Source: Craspedostauros australis
Lineage: Eukaryota > Bacillariophyta > Bacillariophyceae > Mastogloiales > Achnanthaceae
Direction: 5' to 3'
Length of the DNA: 64,000 nucleotides
NCBI GenBank assembly: GCA_026770025.1
Contig: JAMXDE010000004.1
Coordinates: 620,001 to 684,000, forward strand
The translations under genes were made by a program, and so were the position numbers. Numbering within the stretch: position 1 is the stretch's first letter; each line of letters opens with the position of its first letter. This document shows, piece by piece, positions 14 to 61,091 of this stretch. Below the pieces are notes generated by a model. The model was not told the origin of the DNA. It saw only the letters and a list, made by a program, of their open reading frames with translations, and did not search any database.

Positions 14-135
14 ATATCCATAATGACGTTTTTCTTGCGTCCGGACGCATTCTCTACGTAGCTTGCGTCCGGACGCAAATTGAACGCTCAGTTTGCGTCC
101 GGACGCAAATTGGGCCAATTTGCGTGGAGACGCAA
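14..135. repeat. Element A left TIR and subterminal repeat array
   Basis: The 13-bp TIR is followed by four spaced 14-16-bp near-palindromes of the type TTGCGTCCGGACGCAA, with CTACGTAG between the first two. Arrays of this kind are usually transposase binding sites (inference). The last copy (120-135) has GGAGAC in its centre, intermediate between the A-type and B-type motifs. Confidence 0.75.
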
Positions 136-2730
136 ATGCAAGCTCGCCGAAAATACCACTTGTACTACTTAAGTCCCATGTTCCTCCACGATGTCCCGTG
201 TTGCAGAAAAAAAAAAACGATTTCGGTCCGAAACCCGAAAGTGGGTTGTTTTTTTTTCTGACTCCTTCGAGTAACACATTTATTTGGCGATTTTAAAAAA
301 AAAACACGATACAGCACGGCGTCATTGGTCATGTCTCAGGGGTTCCTTTCCGTGCGCCTGTCTTGCTTTCTCGACGTCATGGGATCTGGGGTAATCATAT
401 TCTACCTTGCTATTTCGATGTCTGGTACCTGCGTCCACCAACATGCTTGTCGTGCTTCTCATCATGCATCAGTTTTTCGGCACTGTCTCCTTCACAATCC
501 CGGCACCGGATTCTGGTGCTTTTGGTGCAGCTTTTCACAAATACTTGGCGACAACAGTGCATCCTCTCTCCTCCTCCTCATGGCACATGAGTTCCTTGCA
601 AATCTAATCTTATGACAGTTCCATTATTCCTGGATCCTTACATCAAGTTATCATTTCTTGATCGCATTCGTTTCCTCGTACGCTGCCTGGCTGCCGCGAG
701 TTCCCTCTTCATTGTGTGTGATAGTCTGTTCGGACTTCCATCTCTTGCATTGGCACCTCTGCTTGGCTTTGGTGTCGAATTCTTGGCAGCAACATGGACG
801 GAGGCAGAGGCTTCTCTTCTCGTATCCACCAAAATCACATCTTCGTCACATGGTCCATACTCGGTTCGTCTTCCTCCCGAAGTTCCTTTCGATGTGGCAG
901 GATGGTTGTTGCCATTTCCAAAGTCACCATCGGTGCCAACAGACAATGTCGAAGAAGAGGCATCGCACGTCGTCTGACCCAAAGTTGCTGGGACACCCCT
1001 TCTTTCTCCTCTTCGTCTCTTCCGAAGTCTTGAACCAGATCGTTGCACCACAGTTGCTCCAACATGTACATCTCTGGCTGCTGAATTGGTCGATACTGAC
1101 TGGCAATCGAAGTCTCCTTCCAGTGTATTCCATTTGTTTCCATCTCTGACCGACGCGTGTCGAAGCGATGTGTCTACCATTGATGGTGGCACATTGTTTG
1201 TTTGCTGTGCCATGGTTGTTTCGCTTCTGCGGAGGTCAGTGCCCAGTTCTTCCACAGCGTCCGCAGTGGCCACAAAGGGGCCCTCTCTCCTTGACCCTGC
1301 CTCGTAGACGTCCTGATCTCTCCTCCCCATGATCTGCATGGTTGCATCTGGCGCCATGACACCACTGCTTTCATCTGGTCCATCGGTAGAATCTGAGATG
1401 TTTGCACCAGTATTGTTCAGTCCATGGGCAGGAACAGCAGAGGCCTGGGCAAGCAATGCATCTTCGGCATCAGCTTCTGCAGTTGCAGCAATTGCCGTGG
1501 CAAGCCTTGCTCTTTCTTGGGCGATCCTTGCGGTAGCACGCTTTGCCCGGGCATCTGCCTTCTTCTGTTGGACCTCCTCATTTGTGCTGCGCTTGGTGTA
1601 GTCCAGGTTGGTTTCAGCACACCATAATGTTGGGTTGCGGTGGAGAAGATGATGGCATGTGTTCTCGACCACCGCTGCCACATTCTTCACAGGGAAATTG
1701 CACAGTGCCAGGGTAGGTGGTATCCCTTGTGTCTCCATCCACGCCCTCTTTTCCTCATTTGACTGTGCACACACAAACATATGGCATCCCGCACACACCC
1801 AGGGAGTCACGATGTTGCAAACGACGCAGGTTCCTCGTTTGGCGACGCACTTCCTTGGGATGTGCTCTCTCTTCTTCATGTTGGCACGTATTCTGCCTTG
1901 TCTTGGGGTATCTGGAGTGGCCTTCAGGCGAAGGATGCCTTGTAGTTCCGCTGGTTGTACCGAACTCGAATTTGTTGGAGGATTACCTTCGAAGAGCCTT
2001 GGTATACCGTGTGGGATCCTTTTGCAATGGACCGATATAGTGCCAGAATGGTTGCCATCAGCCTCAGCCTTTTGGACCTCGTCGTCATCGCATAGGCGCT
2101 GCAACATGTGCCGGAAGCACGTGTTGATTTCCACCATGGTCTGCTGGAAACTGCGACACTGATTCACCCTGTTCCTGTAGTGGCCGAGCGTGTCACTTTC
2201 GATAACGTCAGTGTTGTCTGCTGGCCGATTCGGATCCACATGCTGGCTGACCTTGTGAATGGCCATGAACATGACTTGCAGCTGTCGTGAGACGGCAGTG
2301 CAGCCCATGGTTGGGATGGGCAGGTCCGGAGAATGTGATTCCATCATCCTCGTCATTATGTCTGAGCCTCCCTTCAACGAATTCCATACGGAGTAGATCT
2401 TGGGCAGGAAGGTTTTCACCTTGGGTACTGGAAACTTCAGGTGCTTGTGACAGGCTTGCCATTTCCGTACCTCCTGCATGAGGTCGTCCTCTGTGAGCGA
2501 TGCGAGGACCTCGTTACACCCTCGAAATGGTGCTTGCGTCGACATGAAAGCAAGAAATCTTGTCAACAATGCATAGGATGGTGATGCCGTCGCCCCCATT
2601 ACAGGAGTTTCCGAGTATGCGAATTCCAGAACCATTTTGTGGAGGTCCTTCAGCACCCTGCTGTAGGCTGCAAGAAGTGATGGTCTGAAGCTGGTTGCAA
2701 TGGTGCGAATTGGTTTTGCTGCCGTGTTGC

Positions 2731-2873
2731 CTGTGATGTGGTGACACAGTTCGTCCCGTTGCAATCCAATGTTGTGAGGTGATTTTCATGACAAGTGAAG
2801 ATAGAGGATGGAGGTTAGTGATGTGGATTGTCATGCAAGGACGGGAAATGATGATATCACTTCAGATACGTAC
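2731..2873 (-). other. Intron of element A transposase (143 nt)
   Basis: On the minus strand the preceding exon ends ATT G before GTACGT, and the next exon starts GC AAC after ATCACAG, restoring a Gly codon. The frames on both sides are open and join without loss. The frame between them closes at a stop inside the intron. Confidence 0.7.
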
Positions 2874-4918
2874 CAATGCAAAGGAGGGCGTTCGGAACAC
2901 CAAAGACAAATGAATGATGCAACAACTGTATCATTTCCTCTGGTCTTGAAAAAGCCGCTCTGAACTCATCATCCTGCAGTGGGAAGAACGCATTGTTGTT
3001 GATTGGGTGACCAGGTCGTTGTTTTGCCTTTGAATGCCACTCCTTTTCGTCCAGTTCTGTCTTTGGTGATGCTCGAGTTTTCATTTCGACCACGAACACC
3101 TTTTCTTGTAGTTCACTGGCAGATTCTCCCACAACTGCAAGAAAGTCCACTGATGCTCGAGCATAAGGCTGGTCAGGATGCCTCACCAGCCCAGCACTGA
3201 ATGCAGCTTTCAGTCGAGTGTTGGGCCCACAAATGTTGGCATGTGTCATCACCTCTTCCATCAAAGGGTCTTCGTTGTCTAACCCGAGCTGGATTGGTTC
3301 TCCCTCTTCACCCTTGCGGGGCTTCATATACCAGGAGAACAGCACCTGTTGCATGAGGCGCATCTGCAGCTCCTGCAGGTATTTGTTGGTACCTGCATCC
3401 TCCGACTCCGTCCTGTTGTTGCATGGCTGAGAAGTGTTCGCAGGTGCGGACGGCTGTGCTTGGTCTTGTTTGACCAGCATTCTCCGGAGGTCTGCAGCAG
3501 CGATCTTGTCCCTCCTGGATGCTGGATATCTTTTGGTGTGGATTGATTTCAGCATTGTTGTAGTCATGAGGCAGTATCGTCGATGAAACTTGCACTTCGT
3601 TTGTAGGATCTTCTTCAGTTTTGATAGCAACGTGCCCAGTCCACGAGAGTTGTTGTCACCATAGAAGAGCCCGACCAATGCTCGGATTTCTTCCTCAGCT
3701 GCTGCTTGAGACAACACACTGTGGTCACAGAGTAATGCATGTAGCAGTATCTGCTCATCCGACAGTGTGTTGCCTGGAGCTGAATCATCCTCATGAGAGG
3801 CACTGGTGGCACTGTCCGAGTCAGGAACCGATTCTGCACGTTTGCTCAACGCGTCGAGCATCTTCTCTTCCAAAGCAGCCAAGTCGATGCTGTTCTCTGT
3901 CAGCGCCTTGTACACCGAATGGGCCCTGTCGTTGATCTTCCGCATTTTCTTAGTTCGATCAAGGTCTCCCAATTTTGCGCCATGGTCGATCCCAAGATAC
4001 TCTGCAACTGTCTTCCATGCTGCAATATCGAAGGTGCTCATGTTGGCTCTGTCAACCCACTCCTCTGATTGAAGAATAGTCGAAATGAGCTTGTATGTTG
4101 ATGAGCTTGTGAGTGCGAACTTCCGTAGCATGAACCAGAGTGGGTCACGTTGGGCACATGTCAGTCCCTCAACCTGAAGGTCGTGGATGTGTGACGACCA
4201 TCTTGCCTTGGCCGCTTCCCGTCGGCGCCTGAATTCCTCTGTGGCAACGTGGACCTGGGTCATGGCATCTCGTCTTTCGTCTCCACCTTCAGCTGCAAGG
4301 AAGAGATGATCAGCATGCGCCAAATTCCTCTCTCCTTCTTGCACTGCATGGGATGTACCATAGTTGTAGGCAAATGGCACGAAGTATTGGGGAAAGGAAG
4401 ACGTCCTCAGGTCTGCATCAGGAGGAGCGTCGACAAGGTTGTTGTACAGCTTCTCGTCCGCAAAGTTCACAAGAGTCAGGTCCCACTCAAAGCCACCCCT
4501 CTTGGTCTCAACCCCAACCACCATCTTTCCGTTGTCCTTCATGGCATGGCATGTCAATACCTTGTTTGGTATCTTGTCAGTGGAAGCAATCCAAACGTAC
4601 GGTATCCCTTTCATCCGAAGATCCATTTGACCTTTCGGTCTCCGTTCACGTTGGCCAAAATCAAATGGGAGGTATCCGTCACGCTTGTGGGTGCTGAGGA
4701 TATCAGCTCCAACTTCGATGAGGTTCTTGACTATCTCTTCGCAGCTGTAGCCTCGATCGAATAAGACGGTGACATCCTCCAGCCACATCATTCCCTTCCC
4801 AAGCTGCTGCTTGATGGCATCCAGTGTCAACTTCGTGTCTCCACCTTGAGATTTCCTGAGCCAGAACAGACCACATGGCATACCCGAACAGGTGAATGCC
4901 ATTGTGTTGGCAACAAGG

Positions 4919-5053
4919 CTGAGAAAGAATAGAAGGAGAGTGGAATGCAAGAAAAGAAAATAGGTTGAGAGTATGGATACAACTGACTGGAACTTCACAG
5001 AGAAACGAAACACACGGCCAACTCAACCATTGTGATGATCATCGCACACGTAC
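4919..5053 (-). other. Intron of element A transposase (135 nt)
   Basis: The donor is GTACGT after TTT GG; the acceptor is CTTTCTCAG before C CTT GTT. The split Gly codon is restored, and the join links the first DDE aspartate region to the DRGY region. Confidence 0.75.
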
Positions 5054-6054
5054 CCAAACCGATTTTTTTGGATGTGTCGTACTCTGCGAAGGTTGCTCTT
5101 GCTGCCACGACTTCCGCATTGGACTTTGTCATCGTCAAGGGTGATGTACCTCTTGGATGTCATGTTTCGTAGCACCATGTGATCGAGGACTTCATTGCAG
5201 CACTTCTCCAGAGTGAACCATAGGTAAGTTGGTCGGTCACTTTCTGGTACTTCACCATCATCTGAAATGAGGTCCCATCCTGCATGTACTCCTCCCTGGT
5301 TGGAAATCCACTGCCAGTTTGCAGAATTTTGGTGGAGTACATCTCCTTCACCGACAGATTGAAGCATGCCTGAGTTGTGAAGCCAACCATGAACTGCACA
5401 AAGTTCTTGAACCCCATGCCCAACCCTGCTGGACCAAAGGCTGAAGAGAAGATGATGGAGTGGCCTCCAAAGACAAACTTTGTGAAGTCATCTGTGGTTG
5501 GGCTGTGTTTCTTGGTGTTGAGTACTGCACGAGCACGAATCTGAAGAACCTCAGCCACCATGAGCTTGTGGCAAAGCCGCTGTGCAGCGCTGACAGAGAC
5601 AGAGAATTTGGCTGTACGCCAAGGCAGAAGGTCCCACTTCATCGGCATAGTTTTGATTCCAGAGGCGTTGTTGTCATGGAGAGTCTGCGAAGGCAAAGTG
5701 ACAAGGTAGCCATCATTGCCATTTTCATCTCCATTACCGTTGTCATCTCCATTGCTTATGCTGTCAATATTGAAGCCAACATTGCCATTGTCATCATTGT
5801 TGGAGTTGGTGTTGGCATTGTTGTGGTCAACATTGTTGTTGCTGGTGTTGTCGTCGCCACTGTTGAGGCATACACCGAGGCCAGTGGCAACACCAATCAA
5901 GGATTGGTTTGGCGCAACTGAAATATGTCGAGGTGGACTCGGGGACACTTGATGGATGTCACCATTGGCAGGTGCTGTGGCTGGCTGTGGATTTGGGTCT
6001 TGTGTTGCATTATGCATGCTGAATGCGCCAGTGCTGACACCCTGCCCGTAGGTG

Positions 6055-6925
6055 CTCGCATTGATGATGCTGTCTGTCACCGGAGTGGAAGTTGATTGAG
6101 CACGGTGCCGTTGGTTTGGTGAGTTGTTCGCATTGATGATGCTGTCCGTCGCTGGGGTGGAAGTTGATCGAGCACGGTGCTGCTGCTGTTGGTTTGGTGA
6201 GTTGTTCGCATTGATGATGCTGTCCATCACTGGGATGGAAGTTGATCGAGCACGGTGCCGTTGGTTTGGTGAGTTGTTCGCATTGATGATGCTGTCTGTC
6301 ACTGGAGTGGAAGTTGATCAAGCATGATGCCGTTGGTTTGGTGAGTTGCGCGCATTGATGATGCTGTCCGTTGCTGGGGTGGAAGTTGATCGAGCACGGT
6401 GCCGTTGGTTTGGTGAGTTGTTTGCATTGATGATGCTGTCTGTCACCAGAGTGGAATTTGATCGAGCATGCTGCCGTTGGTTTGGTGAGTTGTTTGCATT
6501 GATGATGCTGTCTGTCACTGAAGTGGAAGTTGATCGAGCACGGTGCTGTTGGTTTGGTGAGTTGTTCGCATTGATGATGCTGTCCGTTGCTGGGGTGGAA
6601 GTTGATTGAGCACAGTGCCGTGAGTTTGGTGACTTGTTTGCATTGATGATGCTGTCCATCACTGGGGTGGAAGTTGATCGAGCACGGTGCTGTTGGTTTG
6701 GTGACTTGTTAGCATTGATGATGCTGTCCGTTGCTGGGGTGGAAGTTGATCGAGCACGGTGCCGTTGGTTTGGTGACTTGTTTGTATTGATGATGCTGTC
6801 CGTCGCTGGAGTGGAAGTTGATCGAGCATGGTGCTGCTGCTGTTGGTTTGGTGAGTTGTTCGCATTGATGATGCTGTCCGTCGCTGGGGTGGAAGTTGCT
6901 CGAGTGTGCTGCTGCTGTTTTTTGT
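6055..6925 (-). repeat. 72-75-bp tandem repeat coding for a 24-residue unit
   Basis: About a dozen direct copies of a 72-bp unit (a few are 75-81 bp through extra CAG/CTG-type codons) encode units such as RSTSTPATDSIINANNSPNQ in the transposase frame. The frame stays open to 6965 except for one TGA at 6318-6320, where neighbouring copies have CGA. No ATG begins the upstream part, so either an unseen 5' exon exists or translation starts at an ATG inside the repeats (for example about 6227). Confidence 0.8.
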
Positions 6926-7495
6926 GAGAACTGGAAAGAAGGCATGCTTCAATTGTGTTTTGCAACAGCAGAAGAAGCCAGTGTCATTGCAATGTTGGCA
7001 TGTCGAAGTGTGGGATGGGCAGATTGCAAGTGCATGTTGAACATGTGTTGATGTGGAGGAAGATGGGGAAGTGATGTGTGTGATGGGAAGATCAGTGGAG
7101 TGGCGATGGAGAAACGACGAGGTTGTGGATTTCGTTGGCGAGTATCCACGAGCAACAGTGAAAGCAACGGAATTGGCGGAACAGGTGTGCGTGAGTGCAT
7201 GCAAAACATCAACCCACGATGACAGCAAATGCAAAATCACAGCAACGGTGCGACACGACAAGGAGGGTGACGCACAACGCATGATCATTGTTTGTTCAAT
7301 TACCACAACTGCAGCGATTATTATAGAACTAAGACATGAGTCATGTCGTGAGTCGAGATGGCCAGCGAAAAAGGGTTTGAAAAAAAAAACGGCTTCTCAT
7401 AAAGCGTATTTGGGCGAGTCCGTTGAGTCGCCGCTTGCGTCCGGACGCAAGCTACGTAGGCCAGTACCAGGCCAAAATCATTATGGATATAGACC

Positions 7496-8251
7496 ATATC
7501 CATAATGAGGGTTTTCATGTCTGTGGAGACAAACTCTACGTAGCTTGTCTCCACAGGCAAATTGAAGTCTCAATTTGCCTCCACAGACAAATTGACCCCC
7601 ATTTGCCTGTGGAGACAAACGGAAGGTCGCCGAAAATGTCAATGTACTACTTAAGTCCCATATTCCTTCACGATGTCCCGTGTTGCAGAAAAAAAAAACC
7701 CGATTTCGGTCCGAAACCCGAAAGTGGGTTGTTTTTTTTTCTGACTCCTTCGAGTAACTCATTTATTTGGCGATTTCAAAAAAAAAAACGTCGCGATGCA
7801 GCACGGCGTCATTGGTCATGTCTCAGGGGTTCCTTTCCGTGCGCCTGTCTTGCTTTTCTGACGTCATGGGATCTAAGGTAATGAGCTTTTACTTTTTGAT
7901 TTTGATGTCATCCACCACGCTCCTGACAACAACACAAAATTCACAGCAACGGTGCGACACGACAAGGAGGGTGACGCACGACGCATGATCATTTTTTGTT
8001 CAATTCCCACAACTGCAACGATTATTATAAATTTAAGACATGAGGCATGTCGTGAGTCGACCTGGCCAGCGAAAAAGGGTTTGAAAAAAAAACGGCTTCT
8101 CGTAAAGCGTATTTGGGCTAGTCCGTTGAGTCGCAGTTTGTCTGTGGAGACAAATGGACCCCAATTTGCCTGTGGAGACAAATTGCACCTCCAATTTGCC
8201 TGGGGAGACAAGCCACGTAGGCCAGTACCAGGCCGAAATCATTATGGATAT
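7496..8251. mobile_element. Non-autonomous derivative, element B (756 bp, MITE-like)
   Basis: It has the same 13-bp TIRs as element A (7496-7508 and 8239-8251) and closely similar arms: the left arm to about 7880 matches A 14-390, and the right arm from about 7925 matches A about 7190-7490. The coding interior is missing. Its subterminal repeats are of a different type, such as TTGTCTCCACAGGCAAA and TTTGTCTGTGGAGACAAA, instead of the GCGTCCGGACGC motif. It contains no convincing coding sequence and would need a transposase in trans. Confidence 0.8.
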
Positions 8252-9494: not shown

Positions 9495-12162
<2,668 letters not shown>

Positions 12163-12678
12163 GATGGAGCAGGTGGTGCGGGCTGTGTGACAGGCATGCA
12201 TAGTTACAAGCGTATAGTACACGCGGTGGATAGCTTGCTACTCGCAGAGTAAATTGGTTGCTCTGCACGTACGTATTCCATTCTACTCTCCAAACTGCTC
12301 ACTCGCCATGCACATACTCTCTAGCTTTGTCTGTGTTAGCTTGATTTCGGAAAGAACGAGGATTCGTATCCTCTCGCCAACCAAGATCGCAAGCGAAGGC
12401 CCTTTGTGCTCCTCTGTTCCATCTTCGCCCATGATCATCACTGACAGAGTGCGTGGAATGGGTCGTGTGCGGCTATTCGCATAGTCTGCACAAGGGAGAT
12501 GCGTGGGATGGGTATTGTGCACATCAACACATATCAACACACATCAACACAACAGACCACTTGTCCATCGGTTCACAATCACAATCATATCATTATACTT
12601 GTGGAATCACACACCCACACACTCCATCCCAGCACATCCAATTGCATTGCATTACCACACAACACTTGACATAACACG
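12163..12678. promoter_or_regulatory. Intergenic, MetAP2 3' end to MINDY promoter
   Basis: 516 bp between two plus-strand genes. Short direct repeats of ACATCAACAC occur at about 12525-12555, and C/A-rich leader-like sequence precedes the next ATG. No RNA gene was seen. Confidence 0.4.
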
Positions 12679-15429
12679 ATGAGAAATAGCGACGACGAAG
12701 ACGCGCAGCTGCAGGCGGCGTTGGCCATGTCGTTGAAGGCGCAGGCGCCTCAGCCCGCTCCAGCGAGCAACGTCGATCTGGACATGCAGCTGGCGCTGAC
12801 CATGTCCCTGCAGGCCGGCGGTGCCAGCGGTGCGGACACTGCCATGGATATCGTGGATGATGATGATGAGGATCTCCGGGCCGCCTTGTCGCTGTCGATG
12901 CAGAGCGATGGTGCTGCTGCGAGTGCGGCTGTGGCGGTCAACGATGGCGACGGAAACGACACCATCAACTCGATGGACGTCAGTCCAGCCAAAGCGGCGG
13001 CAGCGGCAGCAGCCAATGGAGGAGATACAAGTACACTCGAAGCATCGCCACCAGGAGTACAACCAGGCACAATAACGCCCGAACCCGGACCAACAACAAC
13101 AGCAACAGCAGCAACAACAACAGCTGTAGATGTGGTGGATGAAGAAGATGACAGGAAACCAGCCGCAAAGCCAAGTCCTGTCGCACCTCTGGTTGCCACC
13201 ACATCCTACGACTGGCTGCCCGCCGGACCGCTGTCTGCAGATGTGCAAGCATGGTACGCCACCGCGCAGCCCTGCGATATGCACGACTTTCACAACATCA
13301 TGTGGGATCCCGTCATCAGCACGCAGAACGACCGCAAGCGATGGGTCTCGCAGGGCATCAATTTCCGCGATCACGATCCGCAGCAGGCGCAGCTCGATCA
13401 CGTCGCAGCGATGGACTCCATGCTGGCCGCCCTCATCACGAATCACGGTCCTTGGGGATTGACGCAGGCCCATGGCGGTCCGTGCGGCGTGTTGGCGGCC
13501 GTGCAGGCCGAGTTCTTGCGATTGCTCCTTTTCGGCACGACGTCCAATCCATCGGATGACGGTCCCCAATTCCCGGATCGATTGAGCAACAAGCGCGTGT
13601 TGGCCAAGCCCGATCTGTCCGAACCCACCGTCCTGCGCAGCATGGCCATGGCGATCGCCGTCATCTTGGCAAGGGCGGCCTTGGCGCCGGCGGCATCCGA
13701 AGCAACGAATGATCGTCCCCAGCAGGTTCGCCTCGTGCTGCCCAAGTCGCAAACGACGTCGACGGCATCCGAATCGCTGGGTATGGATGCTTTTGCGCCG
13801 TGGGGAACCAATGCGAGTGGCAGCAATCTATCCGCGACCTTGATGGTGTACACTGTGGATCTCGACACGATGGAAGACACGCAGAACAACTCACCATCAT
13901 CAGCTGTTGCTGGTACTGTTGTTGCCGATGCTGCGAACCCGCAGAGTGCTGCTGTATCCAGCGCGGCGCCATCTCCTATTGCGTCGTCTCCGTTGCTGTC
14001 GCAGTTGGACAATCAGATATTCGCATTGGCCCGTGCTGTCACCAAATTCCTGTTGCAACGGCCGCTTGTTGGAAGACCACCGCTGGATTGCTTTCGACAA
14101 CCGGGAGGCGTCGTGCTCCTCGTCATGTCCCTGGCGACATCGCGCGGCGCGCAGCTCGTCCAGCAGGATATGGACGACACCACGGCCAGACTCACGGGAC
14201 GGTTCGGACATTGCAACCAGGAACTCATCAACCTCCTGCTCACAGGCCAGTCCGTCTCCAACGTCTTTGACAACACCCTCTCGCCGTCCGAAGGCATCAC
14301 GTGCCGCGGCGTCCAAATGCGCCCGGCCATCGGATATCTCACGCAGCTCGAAGCCATGCGCTACGTCGAGGTCGGTGGGTTTTACAAATCGCCGCGCTTC
14401 CCCATCTGGGTCGTCGGTTCCACGAGCCACTTCACCGTCATGTTCGGCGACGCCATAGCCCTCAAGGAGAGCAAGTCCGACGCCCTCCTCGAAAAGTGCC
14501 GCCGCGCCTTCAAATCCATCGAAGGCGGCGAGGAGAATGGTTTCATCGCGGCCACGTCGTTGCGCCAGTTCTTTAATTCGGTCGATTACGGCGGCATTAC
14601 GGATTCCGAGATCGCCACGTTGTCGGCCACGTTGGAGGTGCCGGGGGCAGGCATCATCCTGTGGGACGATCTGTGGAAGCACACGAGCCGGTTGCTCATG
14701 GGCGCGTCGTTGAGAGTGGTGTTGCAAATGACGGATACGTCGGGGAAGGCTCCGCAAGCGCAGATGAAACCGGCTGTGAATCCGGCGTCGCAAGCACCAG
14801 CCGTGAAGCCAGCACCAGTCGCCGCCAAACCGCCTGCGAAGACGGATGCTGCGGAAACCGATGAGGAGATGGCGCGACGTCTCGCTGCCGAATTGAACGG
14901 CCCTCAGTTCGTGCCCGCCAAAGTGGTCGCGACGATTCCCGAGGCGGCGTCTGCTCCCAAAAAAGATGAGGGTCCTCTCAGTGACGAAGACTTCGCTCGA
15001 CAGCTGCAACAACAATGGGATCAGACCGCCGCCGCAACCGGCATGGCCTCCTCCTCGACAGCCGCCGCGACGATGAGCAAAGCCGAAGCAGACGATGCCA
15101 CCATCGCCACGACCACGTCGCAACAGCAAGCACCGTTGCTGCTCACCAACGCGCCGCACGACGACGACAAGAGCAAGAAACCGCTGATCCAGGACTACGA
15201 ACGCAGCGACCGCACCATCCAGCTGTATCACTACAACGGCCTGCGCGGCGGCACGTTGCATGCCTTTCGCGTGACACGATTGAGCGCGGAAGAAGCCGTG
15301 GGGGCTAGCATCGCTCTGGGACGCGGCAACAGCGTCGCGGGGGAGACGGATCTTGGTGACGTCGTGCGCACGCGGTGGCCGTCGTCCGTCATCAATTGGT
15401 TGGGTGGGTCGCCGCCGTCGATCAATTGA
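12679..15429 (+). CDS. MINDY-3-type deubiquitinase with UIM motifs
   Basis: 916 residues. Three ubiquitin-interacting-like motifs lie at the N-terminus ('DEDAQLQAALAMSLKAQ', 'DLDMQLALTMSLQAG', 'DEDLRAALSLSMQSDG', residues about 4-80), then a low-complexity linker. The DUF4205/MINDY catalytic domain follows from about residue 175, with the nucleophile Cys269 in 'AHGGPCGVLAAVQAE' and the catalytic His584 in 'GSTSHFTVMFGD'. An EF-hand-like stretch follows ('EGGEENGFIAATSLRQFF'), as in human MINDY-3/CARP. The end 'VVRTRWPSSVINWLGGSPPSIN' fits the family's C-terminus. Two more UIM-like helices ('DEEMARRLAAEL', 'DEDFARQLQQQW') sit in an extra C-terminal insert. Family members cleave Lys48-linked ubiquitin chains. 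The multiple UIMs suggest long-chain preference (inference). No intron. Confidence 0.88.
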   Translation: MRNSDDEDAQLQAALAMSLKAQAPQPAPASNVDLDMQLALTMSLQAGGASGADTAMDIVDDDDEDLRAALSLSMQSDGAAASAAVAVNDGDGNDTINSMDVSPAKAAAAAAANGGDTSTLEASPPGVQPGTITPEPGPTTTATAATTTAVDVVDEEDDRKPAAKPSPVAPLVATTSYDWLPAGPLSADVQAWYATAQPCDMHDFHNIMWDPVISTQNDRKRWVSQGINFRDHDPQQAQLDHVAAMDSMLAALITNHGPWGLTQAHGGPCGVLAAVQAEFLRLLLFGTTSNPSDDGPQFPDRLSNKRVLAKPDLSEPTVLRSMAMAIAVILARAALAPAASEATNDRPQQVRLVLPKSQTTSTASESLGMDAFAPWGTNASGSNLSATLMVYTVDLDTMEDTQNNSPSSAVAGTVVADAANPQSAAVSSAAPSPIASSPLLSQLDNQIFALARAVTKFLLQRPLVGRPPLDCFRQPGGVVLLVMSLATSRGAQLVQQDMDDTTARLTGRFGHCNQELINLLLTGQSVSNVFDNTLSPSEGITCRGVQMRPAIGYLTQLEAMRYVEVGGFYKSPRFPIWVVGSTSHFTVMFGDAIALKESKSDALLEKCRRAFKSIEGGEENGFIAATSLRQFFNSVDYGGITDSEIATLSATLEVPGAGIILWDDLWKHTSRLLMGASLRVVLQMTDTSGKAPQAQMKPAVNPASQAPAVKPAPVAAKPPAKTDAAETDEEMARRLAAELNGPQFVPAKVVATIPEAASAPKKDEGPLSDEDFARQLQQQWDQTAAATGMASSSTAAATMSKAEADDATIATTTSQQQAPLLLTNAPHDDDKSKKPLIQDYERSDRTIQLYHYNGLRGGTLHAFRVTRLSAEEAVGASIALGRGNSVAGETDLGDVVRTRWPSSVINWLGGSPPSIN

Positions 15430-30936: not shown

Positions 30937-33900
30937 CTAATCACCTATCGTACCCAGCCGAAGGCGCTCTGCCCTACACAGGCCGCCGCAGGCGGCCTGT
31001 GTTTGGGCTTGGGTGCCTTCGGCTGGGTTACTGGCCACCACCGCAGAACACTGACCCTGTGCACTCGCGTCTGTAGGTGCCGCTCCTTGATTTCCTGTCG
31101 CTGGTACCGGATGGCCGGCAGTCGGACCCAGGTCGTCGATGCCGTCGCCAACCCACGCTTCGGGTCCACCTGTTCGAACCGCTCGTACGAACTGCAGCCA
31201 CGCCGACCTTGTATGTTCGCCGGCCATCGAGACTGCGTCAGACCCCTGCGCTGCCACCGCCCTGTCGAGACGGTTCCAGCCCACGAACCCACGGGAACGC
31301 TCAGCCTCCTCTGTCACCGCGTCCATCGACGCCTGCGCCACAGCAAGAGCCTTGACTGCCGCACTTTTGACCCTGTTACGGCACCTCCACACGCCGTGCA
31401 CGAACCGCCAGCCCGCTAGCACCGCGTCGCGGGCCCAAGACTCAATCGTGTAGAACCGCCGCCCTGTGCCGTACTGCTCAAACCACTCCGCTTGCTGGTC
31501 GCACCACTCCTGCGGAATCCAGCCCAACAGTATGGGCCACCACTGTACGGGCGCCTCCTCGCTGAAACCATCGCGCACCGATCGCCCACAGTATGACCTC
31601 AGGCTCGCAAATATGTAGCTCACCATAGGCCCGCTCGTTCCGATGAGCTCCAACTCCTCCACGTACTGCTGGAAGCAGGCCTCCCACGCCTGTCCTGACT
31701 CCGCACACTGAACCACGTGCACCGCCGTCTCGGATTGCCCACACCATGGACATTGCTCCTCGACCCCGTACTGTTTGAGTTTTGCTCCCACCCCGATGAA
31801 CCCGGTGGCCATCTTGGACACAAAGACGCGTTGTCGCCAAGACGCCTTGCCTTGCGCCTTGCGGCGCCCTAGACAGGCCGTGGACCCGCGGGCTTGCCTG
31901 ACCACTCCTAGCTTCCTGCCCCAATAACCTTCTACCGTAGCACCCACGATGTCGTCATGGATGCCCGACGCTGCCCACGAAGACTTGGTGTCCTGTATCC
32001 TCAGACTCCATTGAAAGGACCCTTCACCACGCCACACAGGCTTCGGCTTGCCCACCGAAGCCTCCCAGTATCTCTTGGCCTCTCCGTCGCAGTAGACGTT
32101 GAGGAGCGCCCACCGGTCCAACCGCCCTGGTCCATCATCTTGGTGCCCCCGGACCCAGCGGAACCTTACCTCCACTGACAACCGCTCACGCATAGCCTTG
32201 ATGTGACCGAGCATGTCATAGGACGGCTGGTTTACCTGCGCCACCCCGTCACGACAGTTCTCCATGGCCTTCATCCCGTCGAGACCAACGACCACCGGGC
32301 CCTGCCCCAGACTCCCGCCCTTCTCTAGTTCCAGCAGTTCTCGTAGTATCCCAGCCACACCGGCCAACTCACTGCGGTATGCCGACTGCACTGCTGACCC
32401 CCCTGGAACCACGTTGCACCCTGTGCTCTGCACGCCGGAGTCCAACACGCTCAGGACGTACGCTGACGTACCAAAGCCCATTTTGAACGACCCATCACTG
32501 ACGGCCAACACATCGCCTCTTCGCACCGCTGCGCGCAATTCCGAGTCCGTTGCGTCGCCTGATATATGGCCACGCTCCCAACACCGCCCTGAATCGAACG
32601 CTACCCTCCTGGGCGTTGAGGGCAACGTTTCACCCACACGTGGCCGCTCCAATGCCTCGAGCCACACCGCACGATGACCCTCGTTCAGTGGAGAGGTGCG
32701 CCGAGCCCTTGCCGGAAGATTCCGTATCGCCGTGGCCGTAGCCTCAAACTCCGATCGTCGCCCCCGCCTGCCCGGGGGACTTCGCCATACTTGGAAACTC
32801 TGACCCACCCGTCGCCATGCCGTGTACTCGTCGTCAGGATCCCGCCACCACACCCAGCCGTGGTCATCGTGGATCCAAGCTTGCATACGCCGCCGGAGCC
32901 TCAGGTGGCGGTCCTCCGTGAAGCCTTCTATCCACTCTTGCCACAATAGCCAGTGTCGCCGCGTTAGCCTCCCTGGCATGCGTGGGTGTCCTGCTGACGC
33001 TGTGACTCCTCCGTTCTTACCCAGGAACGCGATCCTCATGACTCTGGTGCCATCCGCCGTCACCATATCCGAAAGTGTCCTGACTTTTAGTAACAAACGA
33101 CACTCGTTCAGCATCCCTTTTTGCTTGTTGTTGTACCCCTGGCAGCGCCAACTGTCCAAGAGAAATACGTCTCCCACTCGCTGCTTCCGGACAGATGGCC
33201 CCGTCTCTTCAATCGACACGCCAAACTTCTGTGCGTTCGCCCACACTTGCGTCACCCACGACGCTGTGACGTAGTGACCGCAGGCGGCAAAACTTTGCTT
33301 GAACAGAGATCCCCCGCCTGCGGTTTCCATCTTTGCTTGCTCTATCGATAGCTCAATCATTCTTCCCGTTATCGACCTTGTGCTGACCTCATGTGCCATG
33401 GCTTGGATCTGAGTAGCCAGCTGCCACACCATGGGATTTCGCATGCCAATACCCCCATTCGCCCTGGGCCCAAACAGTACCGCACGCGGAAATGTTCGGG
33501 CCACACCACCGCGCGGCAGGGCTTTGGACCATATTGGTGCGTACACGAAGTCCCACTGACGTTGATTGAGCGTCACAGCCTCCATAGGGTATTCCAGTGT
33601 CTTGGTTATCCGCGTGGTGATCGCCATCCATACGAGGTCATGCTGCAGCCCACCCGAGACCACCCTGTCTGCGAATTCCTCGGACTTCCGCCGTAGGTAA
33701 CGGACTTGGGCCTCCGACGTGCCTGTCATGTTCATAAACACTCCCAAGGTTTGTTCAGACTCGCCGGGATCGAGTCGCCTCAGCTCCCTGCTGACACCGT
33801 GTGCGTCGCGTACCTGCACTTGTGCCGGCGCTGCCCTTGCTGTCTTCATCCTCCATTGCCCGGCTACGTAGTCAAATGACAAGCCCCACCAGAAGCTTTT

Positions 33901-36900
33901 GGCCGGAACTAAGGCCCCTCCCGTAGACCGTAGTACCCCTTCCCAATCCTCCAGTGCCTTTTGTGTTCTTTGCGTCACCGTTTCGAAGGACTCACCCGGT
34001 CTTGATACCACCAGGTCTGCGTCGTCAACGAAGCTAAGACCCACCAAGTTCACTTTCTTGTTGCTGAGAACCGAAACGAAGTTCGCCCCATGACGCTGGG
34101 CGCGCATGGCCTCGAACATAGGTGAACTGATGGCGGCCCAAGCCGCTGGCCCACAGCCGTTGCCCTGGGCTAAGCCCTGCATTGGCACCCATCCCGTGTT
34201 TCCGTAGGTCCTGGAGGACACCCCGTATGCTGTGCGTATGTGATGTTCTGCCTGTTGCAGAGTGCCAAACATGGACTTCACTGCCGATCGCCTTCCGCCT
34301 GCATGCACCATGGCCATCGATGCCACACTGTGAACCACCCTGTCATAGCATGACTTTGCGTCGTTGGAGCATATGGCCCCATTCTGCCGCTTTTGCCTCA
34401 TGACGTCGACCACCACTCTCTTACACAGAGCGGCTGTTGACGCCTTGTGGCCTTTACGGCTCCCAAACTGTTCTGTTGCCATTCGGCCGTTGCTTTCAGC
34501 CGTTTGCATCAGATCTCTTCCCAGTTTCTTGTTATTCATGTTGAAGGCGGGGTGGAACAGCTGGATGGTTCGCATCTTTGCGACATCGAACACTCCAGCT
34601 TTCTTGAGGATCTGGAAGTCGGTCATCACTCTCCACGATGTGGGGGAGAACCCTGTCTCATATGGAATCCTTCGCAGTCGACAGTCGATCGCCGCAAGTC
34701 CTTCGTGTTGAGCCGCCGCCTTGAAGTGACCAAAGTGGGGGGCCGACGGTTCGGACGATGTTCGTTCCTTCTGTTTTGCCCATCCATCAACGTGGTCTTG
34801 TACTGTAAACGAGGTATTGGGCGGCGCTGAAGGGGTCGATCCTACTTGCGTCAGCAGCATACGTGGGTACTCGTCCGTCAGTTGTGTGGGCTTCCACTTC
34901 CCTTCACATACTCGGTTGGCGTCTGCGGTGTCCGCGAGGAAACCAAAGCGACGCCGCAGTTCGCCGGTCATGAATGGGGTACACGATGTTTGGAGGAAGC
35001 GTTTCTTGTTCTCCACAATGCACGCCTTTTCGATGGCGTGCTTCGTATCGCACACTGTCAACTCCCCGTCGTCCCCAGTAACTGTGACCTTTGTGGCTAG
35101 CGTTTGCTTGGGCTTGAGGCACGCCTTGAGACGCCGGTTGTCTCGAATCTGGCGTTCCCTCATTCTGCGAATATGGCTCGCCGTGTTCTCCAGTGCCGTA
35201 CCCCACCTTGCTGATTCTTCCACTCCTTTGTGTAGCATGAAATCGTCCCGCATTTGAGATGCGGTTGGTTTTGCGGCTGCATAGGCCTGCCTGGCGGCAT
35301 CCATCTTCTCTCTTACTTGCTCCGGGCATAGCTGGCGTGGCCTGTGGATCCGCAGTCGTTTGGCCAGCCGCTTTATGAGGGACGAGCTGATGTGAATGTT
35401 GTTCTGTTTTTTCCATACCGATGTCCAAAGCCTGACCTCGTCTCTGAGCCGCTTCAGTGTCGGTGACCATTCTAGTGCCCCCATTCTCAGCTTCCTGCAT
35501 TCCGCCTCTGCTTCTACTCGGAGCTGGTCCATCCCCGCATCAATGGCGTTGTACTCCTTGGCCAGCTCTGTGGTGACCCTACCCTGGGTACGGACGGCCT
35601 TCTCGAGCTCCTCAATTCTCCAGTGGTACCCTCTTTGTTGCGCCTTGCACCACAGCGCTTCCTGGTACTTGCCCACCGCCGTTTGGTCCACCATTCGTAG
35701 ACGTCGTGGCTCCACTCCCACCAGCGGGTTCAAGATGCCGATGGTGCTTGCCTCTTTGATGTCGGCCCACAGCATCCTGTGGTCGGAGTCAATAGCTTCT
35801 CCAAAGCCCAAGTAGCCGGCCTCCATAAGTTCGACGTCGCTCGTCACGTAAATGCCGTCGATCGGGACATGGTTCCTGTTGCGGTGCTGGGTTGCTTGTC
35901 TTTGGAGGTTGGGGTGCATATCCGTGATTGCCTCACGCATGCCCAGCTCGCTGAACACTTCGGCGCATCTGCCTTCGTTGACATCTTGGTTTGCGTCTAT
36001 GCCGACTACCACACTATCGCCGTCCTGCTTCCACTCCCGTATACTCTGCGCGAGGTCGAGCAGCATTGCCTCCCTGGGTTCCCTTGTGTCCCCTCGCCCA
36101 AGGAGATAGGTACGCTGCTGGGCCCAAGTGGAAGTTGGTCGGCTTGATGTGCATGCTCGATAGGCTGCCACCACTCGTATGTGCTTGCCCTTGCGCCCTT
36201 CTATCCTCTGCCACACCCATCGTCCCAGGTTGTCCGGGTCCTCCCCTTCGTCGACCACTCGCTTGGCGAGATATTTTGACGTTGCAATTCCTGTGCCTCC
36301 GAACTGCACTTTGTTTGCATGTGGGCTGTTGCGGTTGTAGGCCGCGCTAGCCTTGGTGTGCCCGCCCCATTTCACTGCTCTTCTGGACCATGAATCCCCG
36401 GTCTTCATCGACTTCCAGTTGAGTCCAATTTCCGCCATCATGAGCACGTGAATGTGTCTTCGTTTTACTTCTTCTCCAATTTGGCCGTTCTTGCGTTTCC
36501 ATGGTTCCACTGGTAACCTCCCAATGTTTTGGAACGCGAGCCTGATTGTACCTGCTCGCGGTTGCCTCATTGTGTTGCCAAAAATACCGTCTTCGGGCAT
36601 GGTCTGTGTTGTGTTTGTTGATGTTGGGTCCTTTTCCGTTGGGGCCTGAGTGTTGCTGTCGTCTGTTTCGCGTGTCTCTTGTCTTGTCCCGTTTGTTCGC
36701 CTGTCGTGGCCTTTTTGGGCGGGCTGAAACGTTGTCGCTCTCTTTTTATTTTTTTGGCTGTTAGGTATCTTAACCCTCTGTAACGGTCGTTGGTTCTCAC
36801 GTACGCCGGTCTCCGTTCGTTCCTCGGTGTGCAAGGTCTCCCTACTCGGCTCCGTGCCTTCCCGTTCGTCCTCCCTTGTCTGAATTTCTTGTTGGCCTTC

Positions 36901-37023
36901 TTCCTTTGATTGCTGCCTCCCTTCGCTTAGTGGGGTTTCTACCCCATTCGTCCTCCCTCTAACCAGTTGGGTGGATTCCGGTCTTGGTTCACCACCCTTG
37001 GTTTGTCCTGAGGGTACCCTCAT
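30937..37023 (-). CDS. LINE-1el ORF2: endonuclease, reverse transcriptase, RNase H
   Basis: 2028 residues. A charged N-terminal region (1-150) is followed by an APE-type endonuclease at about 165-422 ('FQNIGR', 'MMAEIGL', 'GIDANQDV', 'SDHRMLW'). The reverse transcriptase spans about 740-1050 and contains 'ICSNDAKSCYDRV', 'QGLAQGNGCGPAAW' and the active-site 'FVDDAD' (998-1003). RNase H is at about 1503-1650 with Asp in 'VSDGSF', Glu in 'YRSELAG', Asp in 'GLDGMKA' and 'RGHQDD'. A CCHC zinc motif follows (Cys1758, Cys1761, His1769, Cys1773). It performs target-primed reverse transcription. The ATG overlaps the ORF1 stop. The combination of endonuclease, RT and RNase H is found in I-like/Ambal-like clades; exact clade not determined. 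Confidence 0.93.
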   Translation of the reverse strand: MRVPSGQTKGGEPRPESTQLVRGRTNGVETPLSEGRQQSKEEGQQEIQTREDEREGTEPSRETLHTEERTETGVRENQRPLQRVKIPNSQKNKKRATTFQPAQKGHDRRTNGTRQETRETDDSNTQAPTEKDPTSTNTTQTMPEDGIFGNTMRQPRAGTIRLAFQNIGRLPVEPWKRKNGQIGEEVKRRHIHVLMMAEIGLNWKSMKTGDSWSRRAVKWGGHTKASAAYNRNSPHANKVQFGGTGIATSKYLAKRVVDEGEDPDNLGRWVWQRIEGRKGKHIRVVAAYRACTSSRPTSTWAQQRTYLLGRGDTREPREAMLLDLAQSIREWKQDGDSVVVGIDANQDVNEGRCAEVFSELGMREAITDMHPNLQRQATQHRNRNHVPIDGIYVTSDVELMEAGYLGFGEAIDSDHRMLWADIKEASTIGILNPLVGVEPRRLRMVDQTAVGKYQEALWCKAQQRGYHWRIEELEKAVRTQGRVTTELAKEYNAIDAGMDQLRVEAEAECRKLRMGALEWSPTLKRLRDEVRLWTSVWKKQNNIHISSSLIKRLAKRLRIHRPRQLCPEQVREKMDAARQAYAAAKPTASQMRDDFMLHKGVEESARWGTALENTASHIRRMRERQIRDNRRLKACLKPKQTLATKVTVTGDDGELTVCDTKHAIEKACIVENKKRFLQTSCTPFMTGELRRRFGFLADTADANRVCEGKWKPTQLTDEYPRMLLTQVGSTPSAPPNTSFTVQDHVDGWAKQKERTSSEPSAPHFGHFKAAAQHEGLAAIDCRLRRIPYETGFSPTSWRVMTDFQILKKAGVFDVAKMRTIQLFHPAFNMNNKKLGRDLMQTAESNGRMATEQFGSRKGHKASTAALCKRVVVDVMRQKRQNGAICSNDAKSCYDRVVHSVASMAMVHAGGRRSAVKSMFGTLQQAEHHIRTAYGVSSRTYGNTGWVPMQGLAQGNGCGPAAWAAISSPMFEAMRAQRHGANFVSVLSNKKVNLVGLSFVDDADLVVSRPGESFETVTQRTQKALEDWEGVLRSTGGALVPAKSFWWGLSFDYVAGQWRMKTARAAPAQVQVRDAHGVSRELRRLDPGESEQTLGVFMNMTGTSEAQVRYLRRKSEEFADRVVSGGLQHDLVWMAITTRITKTLEYPMEAVTLNQRQWDFVYAPIWSKALPRGGVARTFPRAVLFGPRANGGIGMRNPMVWQLATQIQAMAHEVSTRSITGRMIELSIEQAKMETAGGGSLFKQSFAACGHYVTASWVTQVWANAQKFGVSIEETGPSVRKQRVGDVFLLDSWRCQGYNNKQKGMLNECRLLLKVRTLSDMVTADGTRVMRIAFLGKNGGVTASAGHPRMPGRLTRRHWLLWQEWIEGFTEDRHLRLRRRMQAWIHDDHGWVWWRDPDDEYTAWRRVGQSFQVWRSPPGRRGRRSEFEATATAIRNLPARARRTSPLNEGHRAVWLEALERPRVGETLPSTPRRVAFDSGRCWERGHISGDATDSELRAAVRRGDVLAVSDGSFKMGFGTSAYVLSVLDSGVQSTGCNVVPGGSAVQSAYRSELAGVAGILRELLELEKGGSLGQGPVVVGLDGMKAMENCRDGVAQVNQPSYDMLGHIKAMRERLSVEVRFRWVRGHQDDGPGRLDRWALLNVYCDGEAKRYWEASVGKPKPVWRGEGSFQWSLRIQDTKSSWAASGIHDDIVGATVEGYWGRKLGVVRQARGSTACLGRRKAQGKASWRQRVFVSKMATGFIGVGAKLKQYGVEEQCPWCGQSETAVHVVQCAESGQAWEACFQQYVEELELIGTSGPMVSYIFASLRSYCGRSVRDGFSEEAPVQWWPILLGWIPQEWCDQQAEWFEQYGTGRRFYTIESWARDAVLAGWRFVHGVWRCRNRVKSAAVKALAVAQASMDAVTEEAERSRGFVGWNRLDRAVAAQGSDAVSMAGEHTRSAWLQFVRAVRTGGPEAWVGDGIDDLGPTAGHPVPATGNQGAAPTDASAQGQCSAVVASNPAEGTQAQTQAACGGLCRAERLRLGTIGD
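30952..31028. repeat. Hairpin 2 overlapping the ORF2 C-terminal codons
   Basis: Arms 30952-30987 and 30991-31028 pair almost throughout; the loop is GCA. It shares the CAGGCCGCC...GGCGGCCTGTG core with hairpin 1 but has different outer arms. It encodes the last part of ORF2 (about 'AQTQAACGGLCRAERLRLG'). Confidence 0.9.
37020..37023 (-). promoter_or_regulatory. ATGA stop/start overlap, ORF1-ORF2
   Basis: The coding strand reads CAA GAA TGA for the end of ORF1, and ATG AGG GTA for the start of ORF2, overlapping as ATGA. This suggests termination-reinitiation, a mechanism known for the SART1 retrotransposon (UAAUG) and several viruses. Confidence 0.8.
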
Positions 37024-42236: not shown

Positions 42237-43385
42237 TCATAGTATCCTGCACTGCGAATGAATCGATGAATCACCCCCAATTTGAAAGATCCAGGTCTTG
42301 ACGGCGCCCGCAGTCTCCATTGCATTCGATACCTCCTGTGCCTTGTCTGCGGAACACCAAGCAACGCCACATCCACCACCACCGGAACCCACGATCTTGA
42401 AACCCCACGCTCCCGTATGCAGGGCTGCGGTGTGCATATCCTCAATGCGAGGCGTCGACAACTGCAATCCATCCCGCAACGCACAATGATGCACGTCCAT
42501 CAGCTTGGCGAGTTGCCGACCGCTGCCGGTTGCGTTGGACATCCACAGTTTCGCGGCTTCCGCTTCCACATCACGATTCGTGCGCGTCACCTGCAACAAC
42601 GTGCGTTCGGTATCGTCCAGATCCGCATCCTGCGTATCCCAATCACCATTCAGCTTGGTCGCGTACAGTTCCAACCGATCGTACTTGCAGCGTTTGAGAT
42701 GCCGCATCGTGTCCTTGGGCTGGCCCGAGTCCGCCAGCACCCACACGCCATCGACGGGCGGCAACTTCACGACGGCGTCCGGAGCAATACGCAGACACGT
42801 GCCGCGACTGCAGCAGATCGACACATGATCCATCGTGCCGCCCGGTGCGCCGAAGTGCGTGACTTCCGCGCGATGCGCAAGCCGGGCCAAATCATCGTCG
42901 TTGTGGCGGGGTTGTGACGCCAATCGCGACAGCACCAGGATCCATGCCGCGACGAAGGCCGTCGAGCTGCTGCAACCCGATTGCAACGGGATGTCGGTTG
43001 TGGAAACGCATCTGGCACCGCCGTTGCGGAACTCCCATCCGTCCTGGAAGGCCTCCTGCAATGCGGATAACGCAAAATCCATGGCCTCGCCGTCATCATC
43101 ATCATCACCGTCGTTGCTTTCACCGTCGTTGCTTTCACCGTCTTTGCCATTGTTCCTGCATGGTGACACCTGTGATGAGATCGCGTGCAGATCGTAAGTG
43201 AAGTGCTGATCCAGCTGCGGCACGGTCAGCTCGATGCATGCAGAATCTGGGGTGGGCGTCACCTCGATCCGGCATGTCAGCGGAATGGCGCAGGCGATGA
43301 CCGGCAGATCGAGGTAGTCCTGATGCTCGCCAAACAAGCACACCCTGCCAGGTGCGACGGCAGTGAACGGCGTGTTCAAAGTCAT
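42237..43385 (-). CDS. GHMP-family sugar kinase, galactokinase-like
   Basis: 382 residues from ATG 43385. All three GHMP motifs are present: 'PGRVCLFGEHQDY' (12-24, the galactokinase-style signature), 'PLQSGCSSSTA' (133-143, the phosphate-binding loop) and 'GSGGGGCGVAW' (about 333-343). Family members phosphorylate galactose, related sugars or mevalonate with ATP. The GEHQDY signature favours a sugar-1-kinase, but substrate cannot be fixed from this. An acidic low-complexity insert (about 80-100) lies between motifs 1 and 2. Single exon. It stands between ankyrin copies 1 and 2, transcribed in the opposite direction. Confidence 0.85.
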   Translation of the reverse strand: MTLNTPFTAVAPGRVCLFGEHQDYLDLPVIACAIPLTCRIEVTPTPDSACIELTVPQLDQHFTYDLHAISSQVSPCRNNGKDGESNDGESNDGDDDDDGEAMDFALSALQEAFQDGWEFRNGGARCVSTTDIPLQSGCSSSTAFVAAWILVLSRLASQPRHNDDDLARLAHRAEVTHFGAPGGTMDHVSICCSRGTCLRIAPDAVVKLPPVDGVWVLADSGQPKDTMRHLKRCKYDRLELYATKLNGDWDTQDADLDDTERTLLQVTRTNRDVEAEAAKLWMSNATGSGRQLAKLMDVHHCALRDGLQLSTPRIEDMHTAALHTGAWGFKIVGSGGGGCGVAWCSADKAQEVSNAMETAGAVKTWIFQIGGDSSIHSQCRIL

Positions 43386-44021
43386 TGCTGCGGAGCGATG
43401 GGATGCGGCAGAAGGTGCTCGGTGGCTTCAGCTCATACCACACGAGTGCCTATCGCTTCTGTCATCGTCATTGCCCTCCGCCCTCCTTGGGATAGTCCCA
43501 TTGTCGGTTGTATTCTGACGAGCTGTATTGTGTTGTGTTGTGCATCATGAGTGTGTGCACAAGATTTTGTCGTGTTTCGATCCATTTTCGTCACTTTCGA
43601 CCGTTTCACTCCAAATTGTTGTTGCTTTGTATTGGAGCGAAACCAGTCACGAGGACTCGAATGAGTCACGATCAGCAGACAACAACAACACCCACAGAAA
43701 CAGACACAGAAGACTCAACGCAAAGAAAGAGAAACCAAAACACAGAAGACACAATCCATCAAACAACACATTGGATACGAACTCATACCCAACTACCGCC
43801 ACCGTTTCAATACAGACATCGAATTGCCACTCGTATTCATCACACAGTGCATGGTACTCATATAATACCAATACAAGCCATTGAAGACACCATCATCGAT
43901 ATCTCTGCCAGAGGTATAATAGCTCAGACCACACACTTCCTCAACAGCCAATCCAACGCCAATCGTCCAACGTCAATTGTTCAACGTCGATCATCCAGCA
44001 ACCATCAACCATCCTCTCAAA
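43386..44021. promoter_or_regulatory. Divergent region, GHMP kinase / ankyrin copy 2, with empty LINE site
   Basis: It contains the promoters of both genes. From about 43680 it matches the leader pieces at 30550-30649 and 40036-40297. The unbroken AATCCATCAAACAACACA at 43753-43770 is the pre-insertion form of the LINE-1el target. Confidence 0.7.
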
Positions 44022-60900: not shown

Positions 60901-61091
60901 TGGGACCGCCGTATGAATTCGATGATCTCCTCGTTCTTTTGCTGGTACGTGTGTTGAGGGATTTGAGACGCATTCTGGAAGACCACTCTGATTTCGTTGT
61001 CTGTCTTCGTGTTCATCACATCTCCGCAAGCATCGTTTAGCTTACTTGCTGCCTCCTCTCTTGCCGTTTGGCCGGCCGCCGTCGCACTCAT
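57921..61091 (-). pseudogene. LINE-2el ORF2, 5' part: endonuclease and reverse transcriptase
   Basis: About 1057 codons from ATG 61091 to the solo LTR. The APE-type endonuclease shows 'VVFQNASQIPQ', 'LTMAETNLRW', 'GVDLNEDTDEGG' and 'SDHRAIWVDL'. RT shows 'CSNDAKSCYDRI', 'GIGQGNGAGPAIW' and 'AFVDDTDLV'. The last own residues are 'FPRDLVYAPVSL'. Upstream of the ATG the same frame is open as Thr/Asn/Ser-rich low complexity to a TAA at about 61388, without another ATG. Confidence 0.9.

Follow-up and report, generated by a model that had tools for sequence, protein, structure and literature searches.

The window analysed here is the whole 64,000-nt stretch of contig JAMXDE010000004.1, taken from a genome of 74.8 Mb in 90 contigs, and all coordinates below are positions within it. 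Close to its left edge lies a complete transposon copy (14..7490, minus strand, the 4-bp ATAT at both ends included), whose three-exon gene joins a DDE-type transposase, a YqaJ-like nuclease and a zinc cluster in what the evidence supports as a single protein.

A transposon and its three-exon gene

All parts of the gene lie on the minus strand. Exon 1 (5054..6983, 5' limit provisional) contains tandem repeats, an N-terminal region and D1, the first putative catalytic Asp, in the motif TLDDDKV (5122-5142). The repeats form a 72-bp minisatellite (6056-6904), located where the gene encodes the N-terminal part of the transposase and translated as a 24-amino-acid unit; other copies carry related repeats that differ in length. 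Intron 1 (4919..5053; 135 bp, phase 2, GT-AG) leads to exon 2 (2874..4918), a single 721-residue frame carrying D2 together with the nuclease motifs. On the transposase side these are D2 in DRGY (4747-4758), THKR (4681-4692) and a strand with KDNGK (4525-4539), while the nuclease side has motif I, LWFMLRKFALTSSS (4099-4140), E in NEDPLM (3259-3276), D in SVDFL (3139-3153), E-x-K in VEMKT (3076-3090) and Q in QLLHHS (2911-2928). After intron 2 (2731..2873; 143 bp, phase 1, GT-AG), exon 3 (638..2730) holds the proposed third Asp, D3, in WNSLKGGSD (2360-2386), a zinc cluster of the form C-x2-C-x7-C-x2-C-x4-C...C-x3-H (1640-1828) and then a less conserved tail. The first-pass annotation had assigned the transposase to 638..6302; a minus-strand gene does lie there, but the extent has to be redrawn, the element running from 14 to 7490.

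From two phase-matched introns, that annotation had concluded that the DDE region, the nuclease and the Cys cluster belong together, and splice sites kept in diverged copies bear this out. A pattern search for these sites covered 28 loci, namely the 30 loci L009-L038 except L021 and L037, which are fragments of one locus. Intron 1 could be located at both ends in 25 of the 28 loci (lengths 94-179 bp) and intron 2 in 20 (126-153 bp), always GT-AG and always at the same codon; the misses include a truncated copy (L018), a masked one (L032) and loci ending before exon 3 (L019, L020, L022 and L023). Exon 2 identity to the window is only 30-35% in some subfamilies in which both introns are kept. 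Both halves of exon 2 occur in long frames in nine near-identical copies and in many diverged ones, with relatives of exon 3 downstream, and the previously noted Cys cluster lies in exon 3 and was found in 10 of 10 aligned sequences. The one-protein reading is supported by the conserved splice sites, by profile matches in active-site register and by purifying selection.

The nine near-identical copies are that of the window and eight others elsewhere in the genome, with 94-99% exon 2 protein identity. The window copy is disrupted by a one-base frameshift near 5278 (relative to L010) and by an in-frame stop at 6318-6320 in exon 1, and the matching part of exon 1 is open in L010, L011 and L012. 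Among the nine copies, the ratio of nonsynonymous to synonymous substitution rates (dN/dS), computed for exons 2 and 3 from pairs that are not independent, is lowest in the DDE part of exon 2, at 0.15; the nuclease gives 0.32 (0.27 in its core) and exon 3, with seven of nine copies usable, 0.26. Such purifying selection suggests that the DDE part of exon 2, the nuclease and exon 3 were kept functional until recent transposition. Eleven matches in which the C-terminal part ends at query residue 620 at first resembled evidence against conservation. The two inspected, L116 and L117, share 88-92% identity with the C32 subfamily and have neither the nuclease D and E-x-K nor exon 3, so that they look like deletion derivatives of that subfamily.

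The limits of the element are set by homology to other copies, which starts at 13/14, the flanks being unlike; the right end could be seen in the window copy and, besides it, in L044 alone. Inside the duplicated ATAT (14..17 and 7487-7490) lie the terminal inverted repeats, CCATAATGA on the left (18..26) and TCATTATGG on the right (7478..7486). A second subfamily, comprising C32 and C67 copies, has similar ends, with CCATAAAGA following the left ATAT and TCTTTATGG preceding the right one. The palindrome TGCGTCCGGACGCA occurs three times within 36..107 (starts 36, 64 and 94) and a fourth time near the opposite end (start 7436); by analogy with piggyBac, these palindromes are possible binding sites for the zinc domain.

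The target-site duplication was read from small relatives and empty sites. Only 5 bp from the main element lies a 756-bp non-autonomous relative resembling a miniature inverted-repeat transposable element (MITE), with the same ends and ATAT sites (7496..8251). Its genome matches number 96, of which 41 span more than 640 query bases (the window's own counted), and one group is 93-97% identical. Both ends could be read in 20 MITE-like copies, and the flanks are ATAT/ATAT in 19 and an ATAG/ATAG direct repeat in one. When the joined flanks of 10 of these 20 copies were used to search for empty sites, one pair returned eight exact 144-base sites that each have a single ATAT, with near-exact matches after them, and another pair five sites at 96%; for the other eight pairs, none was present among the 40 matches listed. 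Because ATAT or ATAG repeats flank the copies and empty sites carry a single ATAT, the target-site duplication is 4 bp, and these elements have moved with it. Since it has the same ends, adjoins the larger copy and is repeated in the genome, the 756-bp element was probably mobilised by the transposase family of the window.

Affinities of the nuclease and the transposase core

The motif order W-x3-R, T-S, E, D and E-x-K reported in the initial reading, followed by Q, is as described there and exceeds chance in profile shuffles. In an alignment into which 16 loci were entered and which yielded 14 usable frames, some rows being near-duplicates, W-x3-R, T-S, G-x3-E, D, E-x-K and Q occur without exception in all 14 sequences, which come from several subfamilies. 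The YqaJ reference set comprised 11 proteins, one from the same genome and ten from phages (10 of the 15 listed out of 82 phage records with a YqaJ relative); it matches lambda exonuclease 1avq at 2e-39, and its 11 invariant columns include W, R, S, G, E, D, E, K and Q. Aligned to this profile with hhalign, the nuclease scores 37.4 (E 2e-4), a value reached by none of 300 column shuffles (mean 14.2, maximum 25.3) and well above the reversed profile (19.1). The R, E, D, E, K and Q of the nuclease each fall in register with their YqaJ counterparts, and the invariant S of motif I is shifted by one place from the YqaJ S; the core alone matches the set at E 5e-4. The RecE-like exonuclease hidden Markov model phrog_434 matches 6 of 13 exon 2 members of the family (best 6.8e-5; next family 0.012) and three of eight core segments (best 0.002), and TIGR03033 also matches 6 of 13 (best 2.8e-4), although below its cut-off (15.1 bits for the window member against 68.05). 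These results support assignment to a divergent YqaJ/lambda-exonuclease-type PD-(D/E)XK domain.

Several observations speak against this assignment. The hhalign probabilities for the YqaJ match are modest, at 31-47%, and fall to about 15%, with no global match, when the eukaryotic YqaJ heads the template. No PF09588 (Pfam YqaJ) match at E<=1 was found in the pieces scanned, the 13 members included, the family is absent from the list returned by a genome search with PF09588, and the best weak Pfam match is Viral_alk_exo (0.094, 3 of 13 members). Profile searches of the PDB with the exon 2, DDE and nuclease alignments returned no relative, and a single-sequence AlphaFold model of the nuclease half was discarded at a predicted local distance difference test score of 37, leaving no usable structure. 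Related loci were sought in viral and prokaryotic genome contigs and in phages and none was found, in searches from which records near the source genome were possibly excluded. Motif I is separated from E by about 250 residues, partly of low complexity, and in L019, L020, L022 and L023 extra sequence, largely of low complexity, makes this part longer. Elsewhere in the genome, L062 (C25:34761-35165) is a separate YqaJ-domain protein above the Pfam cut-off.

For the transposase core, profiles of classical piggyBac copies from the same genome served as templates. On the first of these, the segments with D1, D2, the KDNGK/RDNGK strand, D3 and the zinc cluster each score best at the homologous piggyBac place, and in order. 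Shuffled segments reach the score in 0 of 60 trials for D2 and in 2 of 60 for both the strand and the zinc cluster. With two templates, D1, D2 and D3 coincide exactly with the catalytic Asp residues of piggyBac, a register that shuffled segments adopt in 1, 2 and 2 of 150 trials, respectively. Three zinc Cys are in register with one template; the second, a fragment that ends earlier, gives no zinc match. KGGSD is invariant in 10 of 10 aligned sequences. The D3 region of piggyBac includes Y439, N440, G444, G445 and D447 (PMC7351741; here and below, statements cited by PMC number draw on excerpts of the papers), and WNxxKGGSD matches N440, G444, G445 and D447 but has W where piggyBac has Y439. 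The zinc cluster resembles the C-terminal cysteine-rich domain of piggyBac.

Other results weigh on the opposite side. The whole DDE region scores 24.2 against piggyBac (E 0.07), a weak value that 2 of 200 shuffles reach; as controls, the DDE region against YqaJ gives 11.4 and the nuclease against piggyBac 16.2. Taken alone, the D1 and D3 segments do no better than shuffles, of which 41 and 12 of 60 reach their respective scores, and the N-terminal segment aligns to the wrong piggyBac place. Adding exon 3, whose parts in the joined profile still had their C-terminal tails, raised the score on one template (pb, 23.6 vs 17.0-18.9) and lowered it on two (pb2b, 20.9 vs 24.2; pb2, 19.4 vs 21.0). 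PF13843 (DDE_Tnp_1_7) has no match in the window exons or the 13 exon 2 members (E<=1) or in five joined DDE regions (E<=5), the window copy is absent among the PF13843 matches listed for the genome, and the best weak Pfam DDE match is DDE_Tnp_1 (0.054, one of 13 members). The target is ATAT, not the TTAA of piggyBac. The enzyme is thus best described as a divergent piggyBac-like DDD transposase, a reading that the register and motif evidence supports, and not as a piggyBac member by Pfam or target site. The DDE type given in the first-pass annotation is supported, and the profile comparison suggested there gave a YqaJ match beyond all 300 shuffles and a piggyBac match that is weak overall and exact in the register of its triad.

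Probably nested active sites and a proposed mechanism

The proposed D3 motif sits in exon 3, downstream of the nuclease, which places the nuclease between D2 and D3. In piggyBac an insertion domain follows the fifth strand, a slot common to DDE/D transposases with such domains (PMC7351741). Given this slot and the D2-D3 location, the nuclease is proposed to occupy or extend the insertion domain, and it is probably nested inside the RNase-H-like core, not placed beside the DDE core. The original domain layout holds in uniting all parts in one protein; it makes no mention of a D3 downstream of the nuclease. In its full form, the proposal is that the RNase-H-like core has taken up an entire lambda-exonuclease-type nuclease between its second and third catalytic Asp, either in place of the insertion domain or as an extension of it. 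One polypeptide would then carry two nested active sites that process opposite strands of one DNA end; we consider this an even call.

Against nesting stands an invariant Asp in a WDL motif of exon 2, which lies 92 residues after D2 and is an alternative third acid. With it, the DDE core would be complete in exons 1-2 (D1, D2 and the WDL Asp), and the nuclease and zinc region would be C-terminal appendages, an arrangement also favoured by the failure of the D3 segment alone to outscore shuffles. The invariance of KGGSD, its exact placement on the piggyBac D3 with two templates and the fit of the N-x2-KGG-x-D pattern to piggyBac residues (PMC7351741) argue the other way, and we regard the appended arrangement as unlikely, though deserving serious attention.

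That the element is a cut-and-paste transposon with a single, divergent piggyBac-like DDD transposase carrying the nuclease is the best-supported part of the explanation. We hold it reasonably probable as a whole, with the nuclease nested between D2 and D3, the zinc cluster corresponding to the C-terminal cysteine-rich domain of piggyBac and the nuclease acting at the excision break. The DDD site would nick the transposon ends and insert them at ATAT, giving the 4-bp duplication, while the nuclease, held next to the same DNA end, would act on the 5'-ended strand of the break. Enzymes of the YqaJ, lambda and RecE kind act mainly as 5'-3' exonucleases, and piggyBac excision leaves complementary 5' overhangs. 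The excision site of piggyBac is repaired without a footprint (PMC7351741). Trimming of the overhangs would block such footprint-free repair and favour repair from a homologous copy, adding a copy of the element. In the present case the nuclease would most likely trim the ATAT 5' overhangs of the donor; the trimmed gap, not being rejoined seamlessly, would be repaired from a homologous copy, which would restore the element and raise copy number.

That the nuclease is active, and what it does, we infer from its sequence. If the architecture is nested, trimming of donor ends is the role we favour, at slightly under an even chance; TnsA-like cutting of the non-transferred strand is a more doubtful assignment, and hairpin or target processing and a non-catalytic role are each improbable. 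The main rival explanation, which we hold to be fairly unlikely, makes the nuclease the second-strand cutter: it would cut the non-transferred strand at the transposon ends, the part played by TnsA alongside TnsB in Tn7, and hairpin formation by the DDD site would then be unnecessary. The general preference of YqaJ, lambda and RecE enzymes for 5'-3' exonuclease action tells against such cleavage, as does the palindromic 4-bp duplication, which fits a piggyBac-like hairpin route with no second cutter. In its favour, the proposed slot adjoins the hairpin and target DNA in piggyBac (PMC7351741), natural TnsAB fusions work as a single polypeptide, and loss of TnsA activity leads to cointegrates (PMC8188705).

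A further rival makes the nuclease fold a dead structural or DNA-binding module. The nuclease is known from sequence alone and some domains of this fold are inactive, but E, D, E-x-K and Q are invariant in all 14 sequences (near-duplicate rows among them) and the domain is under purifying selection, which leaves this reading very unlikely. Equally improbable is an origin from another superfamily (for example an ISL2EU/PHIS relative with two fused open reading frames, the piggyBac likeness being superficial): overall piggyBac scores are weak and ISL2EU encodes a YqaJ protein beside its DDE transposase, but ISL2EU, compared by description and not by profile, has an A|AT|T target, a separate YqaJ frame and a THAP domain (PMC4482050), whereas here 4 bp are duplicated and both the D3 motif and the zinc cluster resemble those of piggyBac.

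Surroundings and comparison with known systems

Outside the element, the window holds two minus-strand open frames with reverse transcriptase domains (30937-37134 and 57522-61385, the second also with Exo_endo_phos), which are likely retroelements. Host-like genes encode an M24 peptidase (10660-12162), a MINDY-type deubiquitinase with UIM (12670-15429), a galactokinase-like GHMP kinase (42237-43427) and an ankyrin-repeat protein (43923-45011). The genome has 88 matches to PF03842 (silicon transporters), more than 20 of which are almost full-length and free of stops, to our knowledge an unusually large family, as well as 61 matches to light-harvesting proteins; both point to a diatom.

Eukaryotic transposons with accessory nucleases are already known (ISL2EU, KolobokP and KolobokD), and the roles of those nucleases are open; for ISL2EU, the function of the extra open reading frames is stated to be so (PMC4482050). 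Among the matches listed for open-licence PubMed Central literature on YqaJ, piggyBac, ISL2EU, diatoms and transposase-nuclease fusions, the excerpts returned do not describe the nested architecture. The nuclease of the window is inseparable from its transposase and evolves under purifying selection, and its proposed place with respect to the triad predicts where it acts. It would offer a testable single-protein system for transposon control of donor-site fate, and the architecture suggests an unstudied way of moving DNA.

With piggyBac (PF13843), the element shares the order D1, D2, strand and D3 (the last in KGGxD), a C-terminal zinc domain, a 4-bp palindromic AT-only target and palindromes near the ends; the piggyBac end also starts with CC, like that of the element. 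It differs in having ATAT instead of TTAA, similarity below the Pfam level and some 600 extra residues, with the nuclease, between D2 and D3. The YqaJ/lambda exonuclease/RecE-like enzymes have W-x3-R, T-S, G-x3-E, D, E-x-K and Q in the same order; what sets the window nuclease apart is its long motif I-to-E spacing, F where YqaJ has G after the catalytic D, the offset S of motif I and its fusion inside a transposase, and the invariant G62 and F197 of the YqaJ set have no checked counterpart in it. ISL2EU is likewise a eukaryotic DDE transposon with a YqaJ nuclease, but its proteins come from separate open reading frames and include a THAP domain, and its target is the one given above (PMC4482050), in contrast to the one protein and 4-bp ATAT found here; THAP had no match in Pfam scans of the window exons and the 13 exon 2 members. 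KolobokP and KolobokD are eukaryotic DDD/E transposons that have also acquired a nuclease (His-Me finger and DEDDh, respectively), although of other folds, and in KolobokP the nuclease is encoded separately, on the opposite strand (PMC9587614). The Tn7-like TnsAB fusions unite a DDE transposase with an endonuclease domain in a single polypeptide, but they are bacterial and arose from adjacent genes that are fused, not nested (PMC8188705); the transposase of the window would be their eukaryotic counterpart.

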